Source of the DNA: Neisseriaceae bacterium JH1-16 | Lineage (GTDB): Bacteria; Pseudomonadota; Gammaproteobacteria; Burkholderiales; Chromobacteriaceae | Assembly: GCA_025989215.1 (NCBI GenBank) | Contig: JAPDNP010000004.1 | Coordinates: 62,001-126,000 of the forward strand | DNA length: 64,000 nucleotides | Direction of reading: 5' to 3' | Part shown: positions 54,437 to 54,560 of the stretch, piece by piece | How the letters are laid out: every line of letters starts with the position of its first letter | Position numbering within the stretch: position 1 is the stretch's first letter | Position numbers and translations under genes: made by a program | The notes under the pieces: model-generated | Seen by the model: the letters and a program-made list of their open reading frames with translations, nothing else | Told to the model about the DNA's origin: nothing | Databases searched by the model: none

Positions 54437-54487
54437 CATGACAAACGTACGCATCGCATCCCGTTTTTGGTGGTGGCGCTTCACCTA
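54437..54487 (+). CDS. Candidate trpS leader peptide with three Trp codons
   Basis: A 16-codon open frame, MTNVRIASRFWWWRFT, then TAG. Three consecutive TGG codons lie at 54467-54475. It is too short for routine gene callers. Position, length, Trp run and the terminator 24 bases downstream match classical Trp attenuation leaders (E. coli trpL has two Trp codons), but the downstream gene is trpS, the tryptophanyl-tRNA synthetase. Weak point: no good ribosome site is visible (CGGGTGCAG is the nearest purine-rich stretch). The role is inferred. Confidence 0.68.
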
Positions 54488-54560
54488 GAGGCGGCACCGC
54501 GGTTGCGTATCTAAAACACCCGGAGCCTGCCGGCCAGGCGCTCCGGGTGTTTTGTTTCCT
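54488..54560 (+). promoter_or_regulatory. Candidate trpS attenuator
   Basis: The terminator stem AAAACACCCGGA (54512-54523) pairs with TCCGGGTGTTTT (54541-54552), extended by the inner stem GCCTG/CAGGC, and is followed by GTTTCC. Between the leader stop and the terminator, GGCGGCA (54489-54495) can pair with TGCCGGCC (54527-54534, one bulge), which would open the base of the terminator and act as antiterminator. A ribosome stalled on the Trp codons would leave this segment free. Folding was judged by eye. Confidence 0.62.

Follow-up and report, generated by a model that had tools for sequence, protein, structure and literature searches.

A probable tryptophan-responsive attenuator, with a predicted leaderless start, upstream of the short-type trpS gene in Neisseriales and Burkholderiales

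The short-type trpS gene of Neisseriaceae bacterium JH1-16 is preceded by a leader in which a small frame with three Trp codons is followed by competing RNA hairpins. Judging from the sequence, we consider it highly probable (roughly 0.88) that this leader is a ribosome-mediated transcription attenuator making trpS respond to charged tRNA-Trp. The window, i.e., the whole stretch of DNA analyzed, comprises 64,000 nucleotides of contig JAPDNP010000004.1. A tryptophan attenuator of trpS had been proposed in a first-pass annotation of this sequence; it is accepted here because the element is conserved, offers competing pairings, is specific for short-type trpS genes and has a corresponding promoter layout, and the sequence-based attempts to refute it failed. 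A switch shared by one trpS type across many beta-proteobacterial genera would tell how charged tRNA-Trp is sensed there, thus filling a gap.

The features of the region are collected in Table 1. The 16-codon frame with three consecutive TGG codons, as originally annotated, is indeed present, as is the strong terminator 24 nt past the leader stop codon; the distance from the hairpin to trpS, first given as 45 bases, measures 51 nt. The leader RNA as a whole has a computed fold of -63.1 kcal/mol, with a z-score of -5.8 against shuffles. Taken by itself, the frame is weak evidence, since frames with adjacent Trp codons are not rare in GC-rich DNA of this kind: among the 314 frames of 8-30 codons in the window, seven contain WW and two contain WWW. 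Conservation is therefore the deciding test.

Table 1. Coordinates of the features around the trpS leader (positions of the window; segments of the leader RNA are numbered 1 to 6).
Feature	Position	Strand	Basis or remark
ppsR	53392-54213		NF049928; directly upstream of leader region
Predicted leader promoter, -35 box TTGACC	54401-54406	+	bipartite PWM scan, spacer 18; relatives alike
Predicted -10 box CAGACT, 7 nt before leader ATG	54425-54430	+	predicted leaderless start
Leader peptide frame (trpS leader), 16 codons, MTNVRIASRFWWWRFT then stop	54438-54488	+	sequence; conserved
Regulatory Trp codons TGG-TGG-TGG	54468-54476	+	sequence; relatives keep WW, WWW or W there
1:2 protector hairpin (54470-54482 with 54488-54500)	54470-54500	+	folding; overlaps Trp and stop codons
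2:3 antiterminator (54490-54503 with 54518-54531)	54490-54531	+	masked fold, -16.4 kcal/mol
3:4 intrinsic terminator AAAACACCCGGAGCCTGCCGGCCAGGCGCTCCGGGTGTTTT, then GTTTCC	54513-54553	+	about -29 kcal/mol; position conserved
3:5 alternative pairing (terminator 5' arm/loop 54523-54533 with segment 5, 54572-54582)	54523-54582	+	covariation
5:6 candidate RBS sequestor (TCTCC 54581-54585 with GGAGA 54596-54600)	54581-54600	+	accessibility, group tests
trpS Shine-Dalgarno (SD) AGGAGA	54595-54600	+	
trpS, tryptophan--tRNA ligase, short type, 340 aa	54605-55627	+	TIGR00233, 250 bits (cut-off 176.75)
DUF1737 gene	55647-55856		PF08410; 3' of trpS

The nearest trpS loci, 80 in number, were fetched from public genomes and their upstream regions examined. 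A frame with Trp codons close to its stop, and with a hairpin after it, precedes trpS in 69 loci of Neisseriales and Burkholderiales, the window counted, and the genera carrying such a frame include Burkholderia, Paraburkholderia, Cupriavidus, Herbaspirillum, Massilia and Janthinobacterium. Alignment of the upstream regions of relatives, a check recommended in the first-pass annotation, accordingly finds the Trp codons conserved and the hairpin behind them; a lack of conserved Trp codons, one of the refutations foreseen there, is thus not what relatives show. The leader peptides typically end in WWRA, WWRR or WWRL, and only one Trp codon is kept in three loci (L014, L059 and L060). In Collimonas, Undibacterium and Methylophilaceae, the trpS leader is absent altogether. 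The upstream regions were read directly because model R1 gave few true matches, both in the class and, at E 1e-3, in the order; it overlooks even the element of the window, and its weakness precludes claims about distribution.

Furthermore, the element distinguishes between two types of trpS. A covariance model built on the Neisseriales copies and run over the window's family finds it before 57 of the 58 short-type trpS genes, in the same orientation and at a distance of 66-95 nt; the 58th, that of Crenobacter intestini (genome G336, locus L014), has the leader with a single Trp codon. Six further matches of this model fall elsewhere, all of them weak (E at least 7.7e-4), and the three family members devoid of a short trpS gave no strong match to the element. 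None of the 17 long trpS genes (about 400 aa) read across the order has a Trp leader frame. Such a second, longer trpS exists in most of these genomes, and in the window's own genome it lies on contig C15. A strict link between the element and the presence of a second trpS was considered and rejected: both types occur in 23 of 32 genomes, and several carry only the attenuated one, which in four of them (G344, G346, G347 and G348) is the sole trpS found. As a separate observation, a genome of the same order (G396, family f203) has four trpS-like genes, three short-type and one long; two of the short ones are divergent neighbors on contig C41, and a WW leader is found only at the copy on contig C8.

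The promoter layout points in the same direction. In 66 of the 69 loci, the -10 hexamer of the best sigma-70-like site precedes the leader ATG by 6-8 nt, and in the remaining three TATACT is also present 6 nt from the ATG; in shuffled sequences, the best site falls at 5-8 nt in 12%. Where a locus has several ATGs, the one compatible with the spacing was chosen, which biases toward this result; the 47 loci with a single ATG agree (6 nt in 23, 7 nt in 19, 8 nt in 2 and 11 nt in 3). The CAGACT -10 box of the window is weak. From the spacing of the -10 box we infer that the RNA starts at the leader ATG, or a base or two from it, and the trpS leader peptide would quite probably be read from a leaderless mRNA.

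A plainer account would see in the hairpin only the end of ppsR transcription and in the WWW frame a chance ORF, the trpS promoter lying further down. It could draw on the position of ppsR, directly upstream in the window, and on the seven WW frames among the 314 mentioned above. Nevertheless, ppsR adjoins trpS in only 7 of the 80 related loci, and frame and hairpin are kept before trpS where it is absent, so that ending ppsR transcripts cannot be the hairpin's only role; this was one of the refutations foreseen in the first-pass annotation, and it failed. So did another, a trpS promoter downstream of the hairpin: the stretch from ppsR to the leader contains a promoter-like element, and the scans showed none past the hairpin. 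Retention of the element at 57 of the 58 short-type trpS genes of the family also argues against a chance ORF, and we regard this account as very improbable.

Coming back to the attenuator, the computational folding that had also been recommended shows that the alternatives 1:2, 2:3 and 3:4 can all be drawn. In folds of the window, 1:2 forms when segment 1 is free, 2:3 when segment 1 is masked, and the terminator when segment 2 is masked; 2:3, computed after removing the footprint of a stalled ribosome, is mutually exclusive with both 1:2 and the terminator. The antiterminator postulated from the first inspection appears in these folds with slightly different strands, and the TGCCGG then assigned to it rather pairs downstream, as part of 3:5. 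A GGCGGC/GCCGCC antiterminator pair is present in all 25 Burkholderia-type loci, invariant and without covariation; since the antiterminator and terminator pairs are nearly invariant, they yield little covariation. A T-rich tail takes the terminator region to 54560. A simple consensus terminator scan of the window did not list the 3:4 hairpin, probably owing to an interruption in its inner stem and to a G within the T-run. Altogether, computation finds in the leader a frame of cognate codons, a U-tailed terminator, an exclusive antiterminator and, upstream, a predicted promoter.

The attenuator would work as follows. From the promoter just upstream, the RNA would start on the leader ATG or a base or two away from it, and a ribosome would translate 10 codons before reaching the three Trp codons. 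With ample Trp-tRNA, it would proceed to the stop codon and cover segment 2, or depart and let 1:2 form; segment 3 would then pair with 4, and transcription would end before trpS. With scarce Trp-tRNA, the ribosome would stall on the Trp codons with its front edge near 54480-54486, hiding segment 1, so that 2 would pair with 3, no terminator would form and trpS would be transcribed.

A further strand adds to this scheme. Segment 5 lies a few bases 5' of the SD sequence and matches the terminator 5' arm and loop in nearly all loci; locus by locus, the 3:5 pairing beats 95% of shuffles in 41 of 69; in a second genome of the window's genus the match is a perfect 11 bp. Double-sided changes that keep the pair amount to 22 cells in the Burkholderia-type alignment and 10 in the Massilia-type alignment (0 of 500 shuffles in each). 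The covarying bases lie partly in the terminator loop, so that the terminator cannot account for these changes. In the Neisseriales alignment, which is small (9 rows) and poorly aligned, 3:5 covariation is not visible by columns. Segment swaps between loci weaken 3:5 in all three groups, a comparison in which shared ancestry is only partly corrected.

Calculations of accessibility relate this strand to the ribosome-binding site (RBS). In the window, the probability that the SD is free is 0.22 with segment 5 free and 0.42 with segment 5 held in 3:5; with segment 5 so held, the SD is freed in 21 loci and hidden in 5 (Wilcoxon p 0.001, kinship partly corrected). Neisseriales and Burkholderia both show a dependence of RBS accessibility on segment 5, and for the Massilia group this calculation gives no effect at the SD hexamer itself. 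Cognate 5:6 pairings are better than swapped ones, with permutation P of 0.019, 0.0002 and <0.0002 in the three groups (kinship again partly corrected), and the column test for 5:6 in the Massilia group is modest (19-51 of 500 shuffles, depending on the measure of covariation). The idea that 3:5 closes the trpS RBS was dropped: sequestering segment 3 raises the opening cost by more than 1 kcal/mol in 27 loci and lowers it in 4.

It is about as likely as not, as a tentative and model-dependent layer, that 3:5 opens translation of the read-through RNA by freeing the trpS RBS, which free segment 5 would tend to cover. Read-through RNA would be translated once segment 3 has left 2 for 5, and leaky read-through RNA with segment 3 locked in the terminator would be poorly translated. 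Equally tentative is the whole two-storey switch, in which an RNA starting with the leader ATG would let segment 3 decide on termination and then pass from 2 to 5, uncovering an RBS otherwise closed by 5:6. If this is true, starvation would open transcription and translation together and leaky read-through would stay silent, the terminator-loop bases covarying with segment 5 would be a toehold, and the 3:5 strand would join, within one fold, the control of termination and the translation of the gene that follows.

The same strand raises the question of whether control is mainly translational, stalling setting the partner of segment 3 and hence the covering of the RBS by segment 5, with the hairpin as a secondary terminator. 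Such a view accords with the dependence of RBS accessibility on segment 5 described above, and with five relatives (L005, L007, L035, L064 and L072) in which the terminator is broken or its U-tract lost while Trp frame and 3:5 pairing persist; these degraded terminators indicate that termination is not the sole mode everywhere. In the window and most relatives, however, the terminator is strong and has a T-rich tail, which makes mainly translational control unlikely.

Two other explanations concern what acts on the leader, or what the leader acts upon. Messenger RNAs of tRNA synthetases are autoregulated in other bacteria, and TrpRS or another protein might likewise bind the trpS leader, the Trp codons being incidental; nevertheless, it is the in-frame Trp codons close to the stop that are the most conserved part, and Rfam scans recognized no tRNA-like element, which makes this explanation very improbable. 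Alternatively, the leader peptide, or the attenuator RNA once released, might also act in trans, as peTrpL and rnTrpL of Sinorhizobium do (PMC7298713). This precedent and the conservation of a short peptide with a WWR end, probably leaderless, lend the proposal some appeal; however, the peptide is freely variable in its N-terminal half and the conserved WWR codons are needed for RNA pairing too, and we hold an additional function in trans to be improbable.

As regards the genomic surroundings, the first-pass annotation had included the DUF1737 gene in the control of trpS. This extension is unsupported: DUF1737 stands beside trpS in none of the 80 related loci, a count in which remote copies could be missed since the query is short. 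Co-regulation would be at most local, and DUF1737 falls outside the conserved unit. Between ppsR and the leader promoter lies a repeat of ~146 bp (54212-54357) with inverted ends, AGAACCTATTTACGATCT ... AGATCGTAAACAGGTTCT; with about 40 matches in the genome, 85-100% identical and its own included, it looks like a MITE, and it occupies the same place in the second genome of the genus. Elsewhere in the window there are a tRNA-Sec gene (31762-31852; Rfam RF01852, 84.8 bits) and, on the minus strand at 37084-37180, a marginal 46-bit match to sX9, an sRNA of Xanthomonas, just above the Rfam cut-off of 44.

The element could also serve as a marker, the genes behind it being predicted to concern tryptophan. 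A second copy, with a leader ending in ...AGWWRA and a hairpin, occurs in a related genome (G592, locus L186, 1480-1640), and the gene behind it resembles, by its sequence, a transporter of the neurotransmitter:sodium-symporter type, a family that includes amino-acid carriers; this suggests a tryptophan transporter. In a relative (L214), the corresponding leader is similar and contains a single Trp codon. Moreover, upstream of trpE in the window's own genome (locus L114, about 2986-3030, minus strand of contig C1) there is a short frame, MKFLPNLARWRWRR followed by a stop codon, with no obvious terminator, which is perhaps a separate Trp-sensing leader.

With respect to known systems, the trp operon leader (Rfam Trp_leader) has the same interplay of 1:2, 2:3 and 3:4 with Trp codons; it differs in the gene controlled, and the 3:5 strand is an extra here. 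The Trp_leader covariance model gave no match at the gathering threshold or up to E = 10, and the T-box model none in the window at gathering or permissive thresholds; at both levels Rfam returned nothing relevant at the element, which is not an Rfam family. In the proteobacterium E. coli, leader-peptide attenuation governs a tRNA synthetase in the pheM-pheST system, which is similar in principle and different in its Phe codons and in controlling pheST. Among cases of leader-peptide attenuation, pheST is also named in PMC1262725.

The first-pass annotation knew of no described trpS leader-peptide attenuator in beta-proteobacteria. Searches of the open literature gave no report for this group either, a published prediction in subscription journals being possible. 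Leader-peptide attenuation of trpS is not in itself new: trpS attenuators were predicted (PMC1262725) and later studied in Streptomyces. As far as those sources go, the Streptomyces attenuators also place a Trp-codon leader peptide and a terminator before trpS, and the title of Vecchione and Sello 2010 (cited in PMC4787780) speaks of an auxiliary, antibiotic-resistant Streptomyces trpS; most genomes here likewise own a second trpS, the longer one. The Streptomyces attenuators belong to another phylum, no 3:5 strand is described in the parts available, and the resemblance noted is one of logic. A further paper (PMC8079986) reports that some Streptomyces leaders are leaderless and notes differences in the uridine-rich stretch of S. 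lividans trpL2. In Sinorhizobium meliloti, the RNA begins directly with the trpL ATG, and Trp codons and a terminator follow as in the window, where such a start is only predicted; that attenuator controls trpE(G) instead of trpS, in an alpha-proteobacterium (PMC7298713). In Caulobacter, ribosome profiling found a small translated frame upstream on the trpS mRNA, a counterpart of the predicted leader frame here; the portion of the paper available does not give an attenuator anatomy (PMC4117421). The element of Neisseriales and Burkholderiales would therefore follow the same logic as known trpS attenuation, its novelty lying in the clade, in a probably leaderless start and in a conserved extra strand through which termination and translation may be coupled.
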